The notes below the pieces were generated by a model. That model was given only the letters and a program-made list of their open reading frames with translations. It did not search any database and had not been told where the DNA came from. A program made the position numbers and the translations under genes. DNA of 33,839 bases from Fibrobacter sp. GTDB lineage: Bacteria > Fibrobacterota > Fibrobacteria > Fibrobacterales > Fibrobacteraceae. The DNA lies in assembly GCA_012511955.1 (NCBI GenBank), contig JAAZFC010000057.1:1-33839 (forward strand). Direction: 5' to 3'. Below, in pieces: positions 5,902 through 29,610 of this stretch. How positions within the stretch are numbered: position 1 is the first letter of the stretch; every line of letters starts with the position of its first letter.

Positions 5902-6531
5902 ATGGATGGCTTAATAGTTGATATATTGCATAGACTGCTAAGTTCTGACTTAGGCACCATTATAATGGTGTTGATAATTGTAGGTATATCTGTGGTTAGT
6001 AAGTATTTTGAAGAAAAGGCAGCCCGCAAAAAAGCCACAACTAAACCCGTGGCTTCTAAAACTACTCCCCCGGTGCTGCCTACAGAAGTCGAGGATTACG
6101 ATACCGTAGAAGATTTCGGTGCCGAAAATAACACCGAAGGCTATGAAAACAGCTCCAGCCAAGAAGTCTATGATGAAGAAATTTATGCAGAAGATGACTT
6201 TCATGGCGAAGTTGTTATGGAATCATATTCTCAGGAACACCAGGCTCCGCCTCCTATACCAGAGGAAAAGCCTGCGAGCGCTCCAGCCACCCTCGCTGAT
6301 CAATACGAAGAGTTTATGCAAGAACAAGAAGCTTTGCTACAAGCCATAGTATCGCCTCCAAAAATCAGCATTCCTACTCCAGCTCCTCAAAAAGTTGCTG
6401 CTGTGAAAGCTGTTGAAAAGACAAGTTCTCCGCGAAAAGTTGCAAAAAGTTCAAATAAAAGAAGACAACTAGCAGAAGGTATTGCTTGGCAAGCTATACT
6501 GGGGCCCCCTCGTTGTAAACAACCTTGGTAA
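5902..6531 (+). CDS. Membrane-anchored acidic protein of unknown function, third gene of NfeD-FloA operon
   Basis: A 209-residue protein that I cannot name. One N-terminal transmembrane helix (about residues 18-34, TIIMVLIIVGISVVSKYF) precedes a basic stop-transfer patch (EEKAARKKATTK). A long low-complexity region rich in E, D, P and A (45-170) follows. The end is a compact basic motif, RRQLAEGIAWQAILGPPRCKQPW, whose 'ILGPPR' core I recall at the extreme C-terminus of other small anchored proteins beside flotillin genes. The gene starts 11 bases after floA and ends just before a terminator, so it is the last member of that operon. The tail probably binds a partner on the cytoplasmic side, with the acidic linker acting as a tether; this is inference. 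Confidence 0.75.
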   Translation: MDGLIVDILHRLLSSDLGTIIMVLIIVGISVVSKYFEEKAARKKATTKPVASKTTPPVLPTEVEDYDTVEDFGAENNTEGYENSSSQEVYDEEIYAEDDFHGEVVMESYSQEHQAPPPIPEEKPASAPATLADQYEEFMQEQEALLQAIVSPPKISIPTPAPQKVAAVKAVEKTSSPRKVAKSSNKRRQLAEGIAWQAILGPPRCKQPW

Positions 6532-6551
6532 AAGATTTATACAAACAATAA

Positions 6552-6578
6552 AAAAAGAGTAGCTAAGCTACTCTTTTT
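6552..6578. terminator. Bidirectional rho-independent terminator
   Basis: AAAAAGAGTAGC pairs with GCTACTCTTTTT around a three-base loop, and there is a T-run on the 3' side on either strand. It closes the nfeD-floA operon on plus and the YjfB-like gene on minus. Confidence 0.88.
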
Positions 6579-6613
6579 GTTTTTTAAACTTTATTTAACT
6601 TAATGTTCTTAAT

Positions 6614-6799
6614 TTAACCCACGACATCTACTTTGGTACCAACTCCGGGGGCACTTGCACTGGTGGGAGGAGGTGGTAAAGAATCCACTAATTGAGCGGC
6701 TGCAGAAGCTTCTGCGTCTTGAGCTTTTTTAAGCATGGCAATGCCGATTTCACCCATGGCATCGCCCCCAGCTGCACTTAATACATTTGCAATATTCAT
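6614..6799 (-). CDS. YjfB-like putative motility protein
   Basis: A 61-residue protein, MNIANVLSAAGGDAMGEIGIAMLKKAQDAE at the start (broken here by family positions), resembling the small YjfB family, whose members share 'MdIa.....', a helix with 'iaMLKKA.D' and a loose tail. Their function is unknown, but they are found with motility genes. The gene stands alone: a GGAGG site precedes the ATG, a consensus sigma-28 promoter lies upstream (6833-6859) and a terminator follows. That promoter makes it a class-3 (late) flagellar gene by inference, expressed once FliA is free. The tail is rich in proline and small residues. Confidence 0.7.
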   Translation of the reverse strand: MNIANVLSAAGGDAMGEIGIAMLKKAQDAEASAAAQLVDSLPPPPTSASAPGVGTKVDVVG

Positions 6800-6832
6800 A
6801 TTTCCTCCGAAATAAAACTAGTTCATATTATA

Positions 6833-6859
6833 TTATCGGCAGTTTAATACTTGACTTTA
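6833..6859 (-). promoter_or_regulatory. Sigma-28 (FliA) promoter for the YjfB-like gene
   Basis: Read on minus, TAAA (6856-6859), exactly 15 bases, then GCCGATAA (6833-6840). This is the textbook FliA consensus TAAA-N15-GCCGATAA without a mismatch. The start codon lies 33 bases downstream behind GGAGG. The TAAA box shares bases with the stop codon of the upstream lipM-like gene. The cognate sigma gene fliA is at 28487-29245. Confidence 0.92.
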
Positions 6860-7657
6860 GCTTTTACTTGAAGTTTTTATTCTTTTTTCCACTTCTGCTA
6901 AAATATCTGCCGGAATTTTCCAGGAACTTAATTTTAAATGAGCTGAAAAAGCTTGTACTAAAGCCTCTGTGATGCTGTTGGAATCCGTGTCGCAACCAGG
7001 AATTTGCCCCAAACTTACGGAATGCGCTTCTAAATCAGCTTTTATGGCGGGTTTTTGCTCTGGGGGAAATTCTAGGAGATCGACCAAGCCTAAATGCGCA
7101 TCGCCCCAGACAATAGAGCCATGTTGCAAAAATGCTTGCTTGGTGCGGCGTTGGGCCGACCCCACCAATTTGCGCCCTTGCCACACGATTTCCGCCCGAG
7201 ATGCGCTGGAAAAGCAGGGTGGCTTTACCAAATGCCGCTGGGAGTTGCTATCTACAGGCCCCGTGGCGCCGCGGGCTAAATCACCTTGAAAGCCTATGCC
7301 CTGCAAGCCTGCAAGCAAGCGTTCCGACACCCAATCGTAAGTTTGCCCCAAAGTTTTCCCCCAAGGGGCCACATTTTTGGGAGCGCATATTGTATAAGTA
7401 AGTTCTTCGGCATGGAATACCGCGCGACCACCAGTGATGCGTTGCACCACATCTACCCCCGCTCTTTTGGCCGCAGCTAAATCCACTTGTTCCACGGCAT
7501 TTTGAAAGTTCCCCAAAGTAATGCACCAGGGCTTCCAAGTGTAAAAACGCAAAATAGGATTTATGCTCCCCACTTCCATGCGTTCTAGTAAAACCTGATC
7601 CAAAGCCATTTGCCAAGCCCCAGGTTTAGCGGAAGAAAGCAATAAATTCCACTGCAT
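6857..7657 (-). CDS. lipM: LipM-type octanoyltransferase / lipoate-protein ligase family
   Basis: A 266-residue member of the BPL/LplA fold that moves octanoyl from ACP onto lipoyl-domain or GcvH lysines. QRITGGRAVFH (72-82) is the RRxxGGG-like substrate loop. PCFSSASRAEI (147-157) carries Cys148 at the place of the LipM catalytic cysteine, followed by GRKLVGSAQRR with Lys163 and QHGSI. The cysteine favours an acyl-ACP transferase over an ATP-dependent LplA, though the family cannot be split with certainty by eye. Its ATG directly follows the TAA of the lipoprotein gene, with GAGGG as ribosome site. The fab/acpP operon lies just upstream and could supply octanoyl-ACP. Confidence 0.8.
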   Translation of the reverse strand: MQWNLLLSSAKPGAWQMALDQVLLERMEVGSINPILRFYTWKPWCITLGNFQNAVEQVDLAAAKRAGVDVVQRITGGRAVFHAEELTYTICAPKNVAPWGKTLGQTYDWVSERLLAGLQGIGFQGDLARGATGPVDSNSQRHLVKPPCFSSASRAEIVWQGRKLVGSAQRRTKQAFLQHGSIVWGDAHLGLVDLLEFPPEQKPAIKADLEAHSVSLGQIPGCDTDSNSITEALVQAFSAHLKLSSWKIPADILAEVEKRIKTSSKS

Positions 7658-10339
7658 TTACCAGCCCTCACGCAATACAGAATCTACTCGGGTAGTAATC
7701 CATTGTGATCCCTCAATATTTACATGATCCATATCGAAAAAACCTTCTACAGGCATCTTATGGGCACCATTTTGATGCAAATCCAAGACTTTGAATGTTT
7801 CTTGATTATGTGCTTGTAATTCTAAAATTCGTTTCTTTATATCTTCGGCATCAGCTATGCTTAGTCCATAACGGCCATAATATCTTGCTTCAAAGTTATT
7901 TTGAGGCGTAGCAACACCTAAAACTTGCATCTTTTTTTCTTTAGCCTGGGATATTATTTCTGCTAATAACTGCATATTATAATCCAAATTGGGATTGTTT
8001 ATAGTGTAACTAGGCTCTGGGGAGTATTCATAGCTATCAATTCCAGTTATAGTAGCTCCTCCCCAATTAGAACTAGTTTCGTGAATAGTGGGGGATTGTT
8101 TATAAACAACCTCCTCTAAAAACCCTTCGGGTAAACCTTCGGCCCAAAAATTATTCAATGAATCGTATAAGTAGCCTATGGATTTACCAAAGCGATCTTC
8201 CCAATTTTGTTCAGTACTAAAAAACATTAGATCTAAATCTAAGCTTAAAACCATGGTATTAACCTTAGTTGCATGATTAAATAAATATGGTAATAGTTTT
8301 TTTACCGTGGGAAGCACTCCGCCCTGTAAGCAGAGATTCTGGTATATGCCAGTGCTGAGATCTTCGGGTATAATTCCGTGATAACAGCGGGACGACCCCA
8401 TAACTATCCCATCTATTTCTGATGCTTTTAACCAAAACCTTTCCAATTGATTGGCTAGGGATAAGGTAAATGGGGTGTAAGGGAAAGCATATAGTGCCAA
8501 AGAATCAGAAAAATCTGCAGTATTTTCACCTTGGGGGCGTATCCACAACATCGGGGTTTGTAGATCATAGCTGTGAGCTAAATGCAATTTTTTGTGGGTG
8601 CGCACATTTATAGCATATAAGTCTTTGCGGTAGCCATCTTTGTCGGTGGCGGTGGCAATAATAAAGTCGGGATGATTAGACCATTCAGGATCGTCCCAAG
8701 CTACTGCTCCCGTTGGTGCAGCAATGGTGTCTGTAACTTCGCCAGTGGCAGGATCCATTATAAAGATAAATTCATGGACTCCATAAGCTCTTCCCACTAA
8801 GGAAGATTTTTTTGTGTAACCAAAATCCAAAAAAGCTATGCGAGGGTTTGCTCCAGGGCTAATGCTAGCATTGCAAACCTGAGTGGATCCAGTGCTATCT
8901 TTTCCATTTTGCGGAAATTGAAAGAGGGTTTTTAACTCTCCAGTCTCCATATTTAGCACCCGTAGCTGGGTGGAGGCTGTAACTAGCCACTTTTGCGCAC
9001 TATCCATGCCACTATGATATGCTCCCTGGACCAAAATATCTTCTTTTTCTTGGGCAAAACCATCTTTTAGCTGTCGCTTAGAAGTTTTTCCACGGAGCCA
9101 AGCCAAAGAATCATTGTTTGAAGCAGCACTGCTTACATAATATAAGACCGTATCTGCATCATTTTCCCACCAACGGGGTATGGCCCCAAAGCCGTAGGGC
9201 ATGGGATCTTTATAAGAATCTCCAAAAGCAATTCCCCACAAAGTTGACTCCCCAGCCTGACCTTCACCACGGGTGCCAAAAGCTATATAGCGACCATCAG
9301 GAGAAATACTAGGATGCCTAGGATTTAGCTCCCCCGCAGGACGAGCTGTCCATTTGGGCGACGGTGCAGAATAATTTAAAGTATAAATTGTTTGTTGCGG
9401 GGAATTTACCAAAACTAAACGCAAATGCGCAGTGCCAAAAAAACTTTTTATTTTCTCTTTAGTAGCTAAAATATCAATTTGACTGGAAGCTATGTCTGTA
9501 ATTGCATCTGCTACTGCATAAAGCGGTTTATCTATGCTACCTCGAGCCACCCTAAAGCCTATATATTCTTGAGCACTCAACAAATTCGCACTATAAACAT
9601 CACGCCTATTAAAGCCATGTGCTGCACTTACTTCATGTAAAACACTCCCTCCTTTTACCATGCGTTCTTCCATATCATTGGGATTTAAAGCACCCACATA
9701 GTCTAAATGAGTGCCTGCTGGCGGTTCCTGATACCAACCCTCCACCATTTCCATGGCATTGCCAATTAAATCGCAAACTTCAGTGGGATTTTCGTAACTG
9801 CAAGGCAAATGCAAAATGCCCTGGGAGTTTTCTGCCACCCAGCCATTTTGCGGTCTTAGCTCCAAATCTTGGGCCGCAAAAATCCATTCTGCTTCGGTGG
9901 GTAATCTGTAGCCTTGGACACTTAAATCGCTTTTTAAAGCTAGCACACTTTTTATTTTATCGCCCTCCTTTTCTATGTGTGCATAGCTATAAACTGTATC
10001 TAAATTATCGATTTTACTGAGAGCATTACAAAACAACATGGCTTCCACAGCTGAAATATTAACTACAGGCAAGGAATCTCCGCGCAAAGCCGAGCGAATT
10101 GCAGGCAAATAACCCATTATTTCCGCAAATTGCCCTTGGCTAACTTCCTGAGGTGCAAGCCAAAAATCTTGACTAAGTTGCACAACGCTATGCTCGCTGA
10201 GATTGACCTTTTGCTTAGCAGATTTCAAATGTATTAATGGATAAGATGTTTCCACAACTTCTTCAATTGTAAGTTCAGTGGGTGCTTTATCTTTACAAGC
10301 ACAAATTATAAAAAAAACTAATAGGATGATTTTTTTCAT
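7658..10339 (-). CDS. TIGR02171-like lipoprotein: FGE-like domain, beta-propeller and SGNH-like domain
   Basis: An 893-residue surface or periplasmic lipoprotein. The start MKKIILLVFFIICAC gives a lipobox with Cys15 as likely lipid anchor. Residues about 48-268 form a formylglycine-generating-enzyme (SUMF1) fold: YRLPTEAEW, LIGNAMEMVEGWY, MVKGGS and YIGFRVARG. The catalytic cysteine pair of true enzymes is not evident, so it is probably a binding domain. Residues 335-600 look like a TolB/WD40-type propeller (HPSISPDGRYIAFGT). From 625 to the end, GIVMGSSR (644-651) and FFDMDHVNIEG (867-877, Asp869/His872) fit SGNH-hydrolase blocks I and V. The first two parts match the Fibrobacter paralogous family TIGR02171 as I recall it; function unknown. 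It lies between rnc and lipM. Confidence 0.75.
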   Translation of the reverse strand: MKKIILLVFFIICACKDKAPTELTIEEVVETSYPLIHLKSAKQKVNLSEHSVVQLSQDFWLAPQEVSQGQFAEIMGYLPAIRSALRGDSLPVVNISAVEAMLFCNALSKIDNLDTVYSYAHIEKEGDKIKSVLALKSDLSVQGYRLPTEAEWIFAAQDLELRPQNGWVAENSQGILHLPCSYENPTEVCDLIGNAMEMVEGWYQEPPAGTHLDYVGALNPNDMEERMVKGGSVLHEVSAAHGFNRRDVYSANLLSAQEYIGFRVARGSIDKPLYAVADAITDIASSQIDILATKEKIKSFFGTAHLRLVLVNSPQQTIYTLNYSAPSPKWTARPAGELNPRHPSISPDGRYIAFGTRGEGQAGESTLWGIAFGDSYKDPMPYGFGAIPRWWENDADTVLYYVSSAASNNDSLAWLRGKTSKRQLKDGFAQEKEDILVQGAYHSGMDSAQKWLVTASTQLRVLNMETGELKTLFQFPQNGKDSTGSTQVCNASISPGANPRIAFLDFGYTKKSSLVGRAYGVHEFIFIMDPATGEVTDTIAAPTGAVAWDDPEWSNHPDFIIATATDKDGYRKDLYAINVRTHKKLHLAHSYDLQTPMLWIRPQGENTADFSDSLALYAFPYTPFTLSLANQLERFWLKASEIDGIVMGSSRCYHGIIPEDLSTGIYQNLCLQGGVLPTVKKLLPYLFNHATKVNTMVLSLDLDLMFFSTEQNWEDRFGKSIGYLYDSLNNFWAEGLPEGFLEEVVYKQSPTIHETSSNWGGATITGIDSYEYSPEPSYTINNPNLDYNMQLLAEIISQAKEKKMQVLGVATPQNNFEARYYGRYGLSIADAEDIKKRILELQAHNQETFKVLDLHQNGAHKMPVEGFFDMDHVNIEGSQWITTRVDSVLREGW

Positions 10340-12232: not shown

Positions 12233-13153
12233 TTATTGCAACTTAGCTAATTGTTCAATGTTTTCCACAGGATTAACCTTGATTTCACGACTAATGTTTC
12301 TCATTAGCCCCATAAGCACTCTTCCTGCACCAACTTCTATGGCTTTACTTACCCCTTCACTAACAGCTAATTCCATGCTTTGCTGCCAACGCACAGGGCT
12401 AACTAATTGTTTTACTAATAAATCGGCTACTTCTGCACCAGAACTCACCAAACTCGCAGTAACATTAGCCACTAAAGGTTTTGACAAGTCATTAAATTTA
12501 GTTTTTGCCACAGCTTCAGCTAAACCTTCTTGGGCATATTCCATTAAAGGACTATGAAAAGCGCCGCTAACAGGCAAAGGCACAACTTTTCTTGCACCTT
12601 TTTCTGCAGCTAATTCCCCAGCCTTGGCCACGCCTTCTTGGGATCCAGATATCACAATTTGCCCAGCACTATTAAAGTTTGCAGCTACCTCCACTCCAGC
12701 ACTTTGGGCTTCATTCAAAGCTTCTGCGAGTTTATCAGCATCTAAACCGAGTATCGCCGCCATGGCTCCAGGCTTTAATTCGCCAGCTTTAGCCATTAGT
12801 TCTCCGCGAACACGTACCAAGCGTAAACCGTCTTCAAAGGAAAAACCACCGGCTGCGGCCACGGCAGAATATTCCCCGAGGGAATGCCCAGCCACCATAT
12901 CAAACTGCACGCCTTGGTCTTTGAGTAATCCCATAACCATCAGCGATGTAACAAACAGCGCTGGTTGAGTATTATCAGTGCTTTTTAATACCTCATCAGG
13001 ACCTTCGGCCATGATTTTGGACAACGAAAACCCTAAAATCTCGTCTGCACGGGCCAATAAATCAGCTGCTGGAGCAAATTCCTTAGCTAATTGGCCACCC
13101 ATGCCAACATATTGTGAACCTTGACCTGGAAAAAGCAAAATCGTTTTAGACAT
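12233..13153 (-). CDS. fabD: Malonyl-CoA:ACP transacylase
   Basis: Loads malonate onto ACP. It has 306 residues from the ATG at 13153: LFPGQGSQYVGMG (7-19), the nucleophile elbow GHSLGEYSA with Ser91, and His200 in SGAFHSPLM. The ATG at 13153 is favoured by AAGGTGG eight bases upstream; a GTG at 13162 would overlap the fabH stop. It is two bases from fabH, so expression is probably coupled. No unusual residues were seen. Confidence 0.96.
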   Translation of the reverse strand: MSKTILLFPGQGSQYVGMGGQLAKEFAPAADLLARADEILGFSLSKIMAEGPDEVLKSTDNTQPALFVTSLMVMGLLKDQGVQFDMVAGHSLGEYSAVAAAGGFSFEDGLRLVRVRGELMAKAGELKPGAMAAILGLDADKLAEALNEAQSAGVEVAANFNSAGQIVISGSQEGVAKAGELAAEKGARKVVPLPVSGAFHSPLMEYAQEGLAEAVAKTKFNDLSKPLVANVTASLVSSGAEVADLLVKQLVSPVRWQQSMELAVSEGVSKAIEVGAGRVLMGLMRNISREIKVNPVENIEQLAKLQ

Positions 13154-13155
13154 AT

Positions 13156-14106
13156 TTACCACCTTACTAAACTAGCACCCCAAACCATACCTGAACCTAT
13201 GGCAACCATGGACACTAATTGCCCTGGTTTTAACTTGCCTTCTTGTTCAGCTTCATAGAGAGCTATGGGAATAGTCGCCGATGAAGTATTACCATATTTA
13301 TGCAAATTCATCAAGACCTTTTCACGGGGAATTTTTAATCTATCTGCAGTGGCTTCCATAATACGCAAATTAGCTTGATGAGGGCATAAAACATCCACAT
13401 CATCCACTGTAAGATTAGCCATTTCTAAGGTTTTGCGCACAGAAGTAGTCATTTCTTTCACCGCCATTTTAAAAACCGCTTGTCCATCCATCTGGATGTA
13501 AGGATTTTCATGGTTGGGTTGATTTACATACAAGATATGATCTGTGGTGCCATCGGACTTTAAATAGGTATTAATGTAGCCGCGATCGGGATCATCAGTT
13601 TCGCTAATAAGCATAGCTCCAGCGCCATCGCCAAACAACACACAAGTATTGCGATCTTTCCAATCTATAATTCGCGACATAATTTCAGTGCCAATAATCA
13701 AAATATTTTTAGCTTGCCCTGAGCGAATCATCAAAGCAGCATTATTCAGCGCAATGGGAACAAAACTACAAGCAGCAGTAATATCATAAGCCCAAGCATT
13801 TTTACAGCCAAGCTTTTTTTGAACTATGCATGCTGTTGCAGGCATAACTTTATCTGCTACTATAGTCCCCAATATAATACCGTCAACATCTTCGGGCTTG
13901 AGACCTGCTTTTTCAAGTGCTTCTTGAGCAGCAGCAGTTGCCAAGTCTGAAGACATTATATTTGGGTCTTTTACTATGCGTCTTTCTTTAATACCCGTGC
14001 GAGTAGTAATCCACTCGTCGTTAGTATCTACAATTTTTTCTAAATCAGCGTTAGTCAACACATCTTTAGGACGACAAACTCCTATCGCCCTGATATATGC
14101 ATTCAT
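13156..14106 (-). CDS. fabH: 3-oxoacyl-ACP synthase III
   Basis: Starts fatty acid synthesis by condensing acetyl-CoA (or a branched acyl-CoA) with malonyl-ACP. It has 316 residues with the triad Cys113 (DITAACS), His243 (CPHQANLRI) and Asn273 (YGNTSSATIP), and the FGDGAGA loop. The residues after the active Cys-Ser read FVPIAL rather than the usual GF-type sequence, a small departure near the primer pocket. The C-terminal GSGMVWGASLVRW is canonical. It overlaps plsX by ATGA and sits directly before fabD. Confidence 0.95.
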   Translation of the reverse strand: MNAYIRAIGVCRPKDVLTNADLEKIVDTNDEWITTRTGIKERRIVKDPNIMSSDLATAAAQEALEKAGLKPEDVDGIILGTIVADKVMPATACIVQKKLGCKNAWAYDITAACSFVPIALNNAALMIRSGQAKNILIIGTEIMSRIIDWKDRNTCVLFGDGAGAMLISETDDPDRGYINTYLKSDGTTDHILYVNQPNHENPYIQMDGQAVFKMAVKEMTTSVRKTLEMANLTVDDVDVLCPHQANLRIMEATADRLKIPREKVLMNLHKYGNTSSATIPIALYEAEQEGKLKPGQLVSMVAIGSGMVWGASLVRW

Positions 14107-28486: not shown

Positions 28487-29245
28487 CTAACGATTAGACG
28501 CTTTTATAACCTTTGCGCGTAACTTTAGCATAGCTTTGGAGTGTATTTGGGAAACCCGAGATTCCGATATATCTAACACAGAACCAATCTCTTTAAGAGT
28601 TAACTCTTCGTAATGATACAAAGCTATGATCAAACGCTCTCGTTCTGGTAAATTTGCAATGGAATCTTTTAAAATATTCTTAGTTTCTTCAAAGCTTATT
28701 TCTTTTAAAGGATCTGTACCATCGGGATCTTCAATGGTGTCTATTAATCTTATAGATTTAGAGTCACCTCCGCCATCATGAAAGGTCTGATCCAAAGAAA
28801 CCATAGTGGTAGGCGCAACTTCCGCCAACATAGAATCATATTCATCCATGTTTATTCCGAGTTCAGTTGCAACTTCCTCGTCGTAAGGCATACGACCTAA
28901 GCTATGCTCTAAATCTGCCATAGCTTTTTGAATGCGACGGGATTTTTGCCTAATGGAGCGAGGCACCCAATCTCTGGCGCGCAATTCATCTAAAATAGCA
29001 CCTCGCACACGATGGGTAGCAAAGGTTTCAAACTTATAGCCTAAAGAAATATCGAAAGTTTCTAGAGCGCGCATAAGCCCAAAAACCCCAGTGCCAATTA
29101 AATCATCTACATCCACTGATTTCGGTAGATTTACCGCCATTCTATGAGCGGTATATTTCACTAAAGGCAAATATTCAGCCAGTAGTTTATCCCTTGCTAA
29201 ACTATTGCCTTCCTTATACTGGGTCCAAAGTTCTGCCAAATCCAT
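28487..29245 (-). CDS. fliA: Flagellar sigma factor FliA (sigma-28)
   Basis: Directs RNA polymerase to late flagellar genes. It has 252 residues of the FliA/WhiG group with region 2 (LVKYTAHRMAVNLP, DDLIGTGVFGLMRALETFD, YKFETFATHRVRGAILDELRARDWVPRS split as in the family), region 3 (LEHSLGRMPYDEEVATELGI) and region 4 (LPERERLIIALYHYEELTLKEIGSVL, SESRVSQIHSKAM). A normal ATG at 29245. Its target sequence occurs at 6833-6859 before the YjfB-like gene. It is transcribed with flhF and flhG, as in many polar flagellates. Confidence 0.96.
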   Translation of the reverse strand: MDLAELWTQYKEGNSLARDKLLAEYLPLVKYTAHRMAVNLPKSVDVDDLIGTGVFGLMRALETFDISLGYKFETFATHRVRGAILDELRARDWVPRSIRQKSRRIQKAMADLEHSLGRMPYDEEVATELGINMDEYDSMLAEVAPTTMVSLDQTFHDGGGDSKSIRLIDTIEDPDGTDPLKEISFEETKNILKDSIANLPERERLIIALYHYEELTLKEIGSVLDISESRVSQIHSKAMLKLRAKVIKASNR

Positions 29246-29271: not shown

Positions 29272-29610
29272 TTAACTTTTTTTGTCTGCCTTGTTTTTAT
29301 CCGCTAAATTTTCTTCCTCATGTTGTAATTCGTTAATATCTGGTTTGATAAAATGATAACTTAAGCCACCATCTATTCGCTGAGCTTCTTTTTCTTCTGC
29401 GTCGGCTATTATGGTTTTAACTAATGAGTCAAAAATTATCACCACTAAAACCCACAACACAGCGCTAACTAAAAATGATTTTATCAAAGCAAAAATCAAG
29501 GTGTTTACGGTGATTACTGGCATTAATACTAATGAAACGAAAAATACTATCCAAAAAACAACTACCACAAAAGCTTTACTCAAAGTTTTTACCATGCGTA
29601 CGCTATCCAT
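29272..29610 (-). CDS. Two-TM membrane protein of unknown function between flhG and fliA
   Basis: A 112-residue protein with two closely spaced hydrophobic helices (about 12-34 and 38-63) and a charged cytoplasmic-type tail that ends EEENLADKNKADKKS. No family recognised. AAGGAG lies well placed before the ATG, which falls inside the last codons of flhG (eight-base overlap). It ends 26 bases before fliA. The position suggests a part in flagellar placement or signalling at the membrane, but nothing in the sequence shows it. Confidence 0.72.
   Translation of the reverse strand: MDSVRMVKTLSKAFVVVVFWIVFFVSLVLMPVITVNTLIFALIKSFLVSAVLWVLVVIIFDSLVKTIIADAEEKEAQRIDGGLSYHFIKPDINELQHEEENLADKNKADKKS

Follow-up and report, generated by a model that had tools for sequence, protein, structure and literature searches.

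A small gene downstream of a sigma-28-type motif

The window, by which we mean the whole 33,839-nucleotide stretch of DNA analysed, carries at 6614–6799 on the minus strand a yjfB-like gene whose 61-aa product matches PF14070 (YjfB_motility) with 37.4 bits against a cut-off of 27. The gene, yjfB hereafter, is present as a single copy, and flagellar genes are absent from its neighbourhood in this genome. Upstream of it, the minus strand from 6859 to 6833 reads TAAAGTCAAGTATTAAACTGCCGATAA or, written by parts, TAAAGTCAAGTATTAAACT-GCCGATAA, which contains TAAA-N15-GCCGATAA with zero mismatches, exactly as an earlier note on this DNA had claimed. The site has the layout of a sigma-28 promoter, i.e. 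a TAAA(G) −35 element and a GCCGAT(A/T)(A/T) −10 element with ~15 nt between TAAA and GCCGATAA; here the −35 box TAAAG (6859–6855, minus) is followed by a 14-nt spacer (N15 when counted from TAAA) and by the −10 box GCCGATAA (6840–6833, minus). The ATG of yjfB (6799–6797) begins 33 bases downstream of the motif end, and the GGAGG Shine–Dalgarno sequence that the earlier note placed in between was found at 6804–6808 (minus), ~5 nt upstream of the ATG, so that the motif stands a short distance before a gene with a ribosome-binding site, as expected of a sigma-28 promoter. There is one full match to TAAA-N15-GCCGATAA in the window, compared to a chance expectation of 0.02 from dinucleotide shuffles, and the next-best site (12752–12777) has one mismatch and lies within ORF 12233–13162, which bears out the statement that no second full match is present.

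The TAAA (6859–6856) overlaps the TAA stop codon (6859–6857) of the upstream gene (6857–7657, minus), which belongs to the lipoyl/octanoyl transferase-ligase family and is LplA/B-like (PF21948, 99.6 bits). The overlap had been described correctly; the name lipM given to this gene could not be upheld, since it reached none of the NCBIfam cut-offs, including the equivalog-level test for LipM, and only the LplA/B-like assignment in Pfam stands. Directly upstream of the lipoyl-ligase gene, an 893-aa ORF (7658–10339, minus) contains an FGE-sulfatase (formylglycine-generating-like) domain and a weak WD40-like (PD40) stretch. On the other side, a bidirectional intrinsic terminator with a 12-pair hairpin is predicted on both strands at 6552–6578. 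The hairpin is symmetric, its minus-strand fold has a z of −2.5, and of the two strands the plus has the better U-run. It is common to yjfB and the convergent gene at 5902–6531 (plus); thus, the small gene does end in a terminator but not, as had been stated, in one of its own.

The candidate cognate sigma factor is also encoded in the window. The fliA gene (28487–29245, minus) matches TIGR02479 with 277.9 bits (cut-off 189.6), has sigma regions 2, 3, and 4, and lies in the cluster flhA-flhF-flhG-(112-aa ORF)-fliA, in which gene names were assigned from translations. Its product is closest (69%) to that of a lake MAG labelled Fibrobacteres, followed by Fibrobacteria, Chitinispirillales, and Candidatus Fibrimonas MAGs, which puts the window in Fibrobacterota. 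The 112-aa ORF between flhG and fliA (29272–29610, minus) has a hydrophobic N-terminal half and no Pfam match. Among the 56 FliA loci searched, yjfB was found near fliA in a single one (G036).

The motif and yjfB across the genome and its relatives

Pattern searches over the 2.68-Mb draft genome found TAAA-N14..16-GCCGATAA at five sites, all of them with N15, compared to one for the reversed control. The four sites other than that of yjfB precede a flagellin gene (147 bits), a flagellin-like gene (60 bits), a second flagellin gene (114 bits), and flgM (41.3 bits). The looser pattern TAAAG-N14/15-GCCGATA gave eight matches compared to none for the reversed control, with extra sites before fliD (FliD, 85 bits), before an 82-aa FlgM-like ORF, and inside an unrelated gene, so that seven of the eight precede late flagellar or FlgM-like genes and the eighth is intragenic. 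Allowing one mismatch yielded 55 matches compared to 33 in the control, which are mostly noise and were left out of the regulon list. The earlier note had proposed a genome-wide search as a check on the motif and expected it to find the rest of the regulon; the motif came through this comparison and recovered genes of that kind. A sigma-28 promoter calls for FliA and FlgM in the same genome and for a motif with specificity for late flagellar genes, all of which are found here. Two FlgM-like genes with putative sigma-28 promoters are present in this genome (L021, G000:C29 near 22261; L004, G000:C84 near 3377), of which Pfam recognises only the 107-aa one; the 82-aa ORF is too divergent, and none of the Pfam and NCBIfam models matches it.

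In the family to which the window belongs, the motif lies within ~70 bases upstream of yjfB in all 14 genes, each with 10 or more of the 12 motif bases and 11 of them perfect, and in the rest of the phylum at least 10 of 12 bases were found upstream of yjfB in 6 of 13 cases. Shuffled upstream regions, used as a control, almost never reach the observed motif scores. The remaining seven non-family genes, i.e. all six of the GC-rich genus g15 and that of G078, have no recognisable motif, and among 32 genomes, mostly of Bacillota, that were reached by way of other FliA loci, YjfB occurs in 15, with a perfect motif in one. Since g15, G078, and most Bacillota yjfB genes are without the motif, sigma-28 control would belong to yjfB in this lineage and not to the protein family at large. 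In place of a sigma-28-like box, or overlapping one, Bacillota yjfB often has a sigma-A-like promoter, e.g. TTGACT-N17-TATAAT at L245 and both kinds at L253. The genes adjoining yjfB vary between lineages while the motif is kept; therefore, it is the promoter that is conserved and not the neighbourhood. The yjfB spacer is N15 here compared to N16 (TAAA to GCCGATA) in the termite-gut Candidatus Fibrimonas group (L035, L040, L031, L033, L046, and others), and that of fliD is N16 in all five genomes seen (this genome and four relatives); comparing the two genes across relatives, spacer length seems to be gene-specific.

In five family relatives and G010, the motif precedes genes for FlgM, FliD, flagellin, DUF5610 (PF18433), SprA-related proteins (PF12118), and small families unmatched by Pfam, which speaks for using it as a regulon finder. 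The families that recur behind it in relatives are DUF5610 (L204, L224, L231, L234), SprA-related (L205, L221, L236), the 'ISADLMYQFYDNKAITPQIR' family (L218, L220, L227, L239), and a short family whose members end in EVD followed by two further residues (L215, L235); the last two gave no significant Pfam match.

The distribution of yjfB follows that of flagella. Flagellin scores above the cut-off in 15 of the 73 genomes of the family but not in the other 58; 14 of the former and none of the latter carry yjfB; by genus, it occurs in four of four flagellated and none of seven non-flagellated genera. Across the phylum, PF14070 was detected in 27 of 121 relatives (26 above the cut-off), all of them flagellin-positive, which gives 27 of 56 flagellin-positive compared to 0 of 65 flagellin-negative genomes (Fisher p ~1e-11, a value that ignores shared ancestry). 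The gene thus occurs with flagella, as its YjfB_motility label would have it. yjfB went undetected in about half of the phylum's flagellin-positive genomes, and is thus dispensable for flagella. The cultured type genus of the phylum is non-motile, and according to a published inference the ancestor of the phylum had flagella, which Fibrobacter and its relatives later lost (PMC4704652); the flagellin pattern in the family agrees with this.

Probable sigma-28 control and the alternatives

Taken together, these data make it very likely that the site at 6833–6859 (minus) is a sigma-28 (FliA) promoter of a monocistronic yjfB of the late flagellar class. Since the same switch precedes the flagellin, filament-cap, and FlgM genes, production of the small YjfB protein very probably coincides with construction of the flagellar filament. 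The earlier note had called it a late flagellar product in this lineage, a view that membership of the regulon and the motif at every yjfB of the family support at the level of sequence. In the order of events suggested by the established flagellar hierarchy, FlgM would hold FliA until the hook–basal body is complete, and upon FlgM export FliA–RNA polymerase would bind TAAAG/GCCGATAA. Transcription would start ~7–10 nt downstream of the −10 box, producing a leader of ~24–26 nt with GGAGG followed by YjfB, and would end at the shared hairpin, so that YjfB would be produced alongside flagellin, FliD, and FlgM.

The proposal that the motif is a chance match, for which the one exact match of the reversed control might speak, is hardly credible given the genome-wide counts (5 vs 1 and 8 vs 0), the low expectation in the window, the concordance of position, ribosome site, and gene identity, and the conservation at yjfB. 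Somewhat less remote, though still very improbable, is that read-through from the lipoyl-ligase gene is the main source of yjfB transcript and the motif incidental. The two genes do lie on one strand, with no terminator predicted in the interval from the stop codon (6857) to the ATG (6799), but the motif is kept before yjfB even though the upstream gene varies by genome, and exact matches are very scarce in the genome, the other four standing before flagellin-family genes and flgM.

A further alternative concerns a TATAAT hexamer at 6827–6832 (minus), directly after GCCGATAA and where the transcript start would fall. TATAAT lies 0–2 bases after GCCGATAA or GCCGATAT in five of the seven putative sigma-28 sites of this genome (yjfB, L002, L004, L005, and L021) compared to none of 37 sites of relatives, an enrichment that was noticed post hoc on seven sites. 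The hexamer is possibly a second promoter element, in which case the GCCGATAA–TATAAT overlap would let FliA and the housekeeping sigma factor alike initiate transcription and give yjfB and several late genes a basal, FliA-independent level of expression. The Bacillota yjfB genes with sigma-A-like boxes (L245) or with both kinds (L253) fit such a dual promoter. However, a sigma-70 scan of 6300–7100 returned no sites, there is no acceptable −35 hexamer for the TATAAT at yjfB, and sigma-28 promoters normally have an A/T-rich start region. We consider dual control unlikely, although less so than read-through or chance. Equally doubtful is the most far-reaching version, in which YjfB is a genuine late component of the Fibrobacterota flagellum, structural or regulatory, that is sigma-28-controlled and lost with the flagellum, and the TATAAT of this genome marks dual sigma-28/sigma-70 control.

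Under the preferred reading of a sigma-28 promoter, the kind of promoter and the protein family are both known, and yjfB as a new member of the regulon is a solid but ordinary result that leaves the understanding of sigma-28 promoters and flagella unchanged. It does link an uncharacterised family of small proteins to the late flagellar programme, on the evidence of the promoter, the regulon, and joint loss across the phylogeny. It also provides a working motif with which a sigma-28 regulon can be recovered in uncultured Fibrobacterota, small families unmatched by Pfam included.

Comparison of the protein and its promoter with known systems

The B. subtilis YjfB is matched by the same PF14070 model as the 61-aa protein. 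Our literature searches found no paper on YjfB function and no statement of yjfB membership in the B. subtilis SigD regulon, and Pfam labels the role of YjfB_motility in motility as 'putative'. The paper on FlgV places YjfB, which it calls an uncharacterised small protein, in one sub-module with sigma-28 and FapA (PMC11607428). The position of the 112-aa ORF upstream of fliA resembles the one described for FlgV. A search of solved structures with YjfB gave no credible relative, and the AlphaFold model, computed from the single sequence without the first Met, shows one helix at approximately residues 3–38 and a low-confidence tail that includes the conserved G-x-x-(V/I)-D end, with a mean pLDDT of 71. 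YjfB may be a predominantly helical small protein that assists filament assembly, either as an exported component or as a helper in the cytosol; judged by its co-expression class, it is most likely an accessory of assembly or export of the filament. In contrast to FlgM, FliD, and flagellin, which share its promoter motif, YjfB has no known role or solved relative.

The site at yjfB can be compared directly with the E. coli sigma-28 consensus, TAAAGTTT-n11-GCCGATAA (PMC2859248). Both have the same length and spacing and are identical at the TAAAG and GCCGATAA positions, whereas the GTTT that follows TAAA in the consensus is GTCA at the yjfB site, which also differs in having TATAAT directly after the −10 box. 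Like the sigma-28 promoters of E. coli, the sites of this genome precede late flagellar genes.
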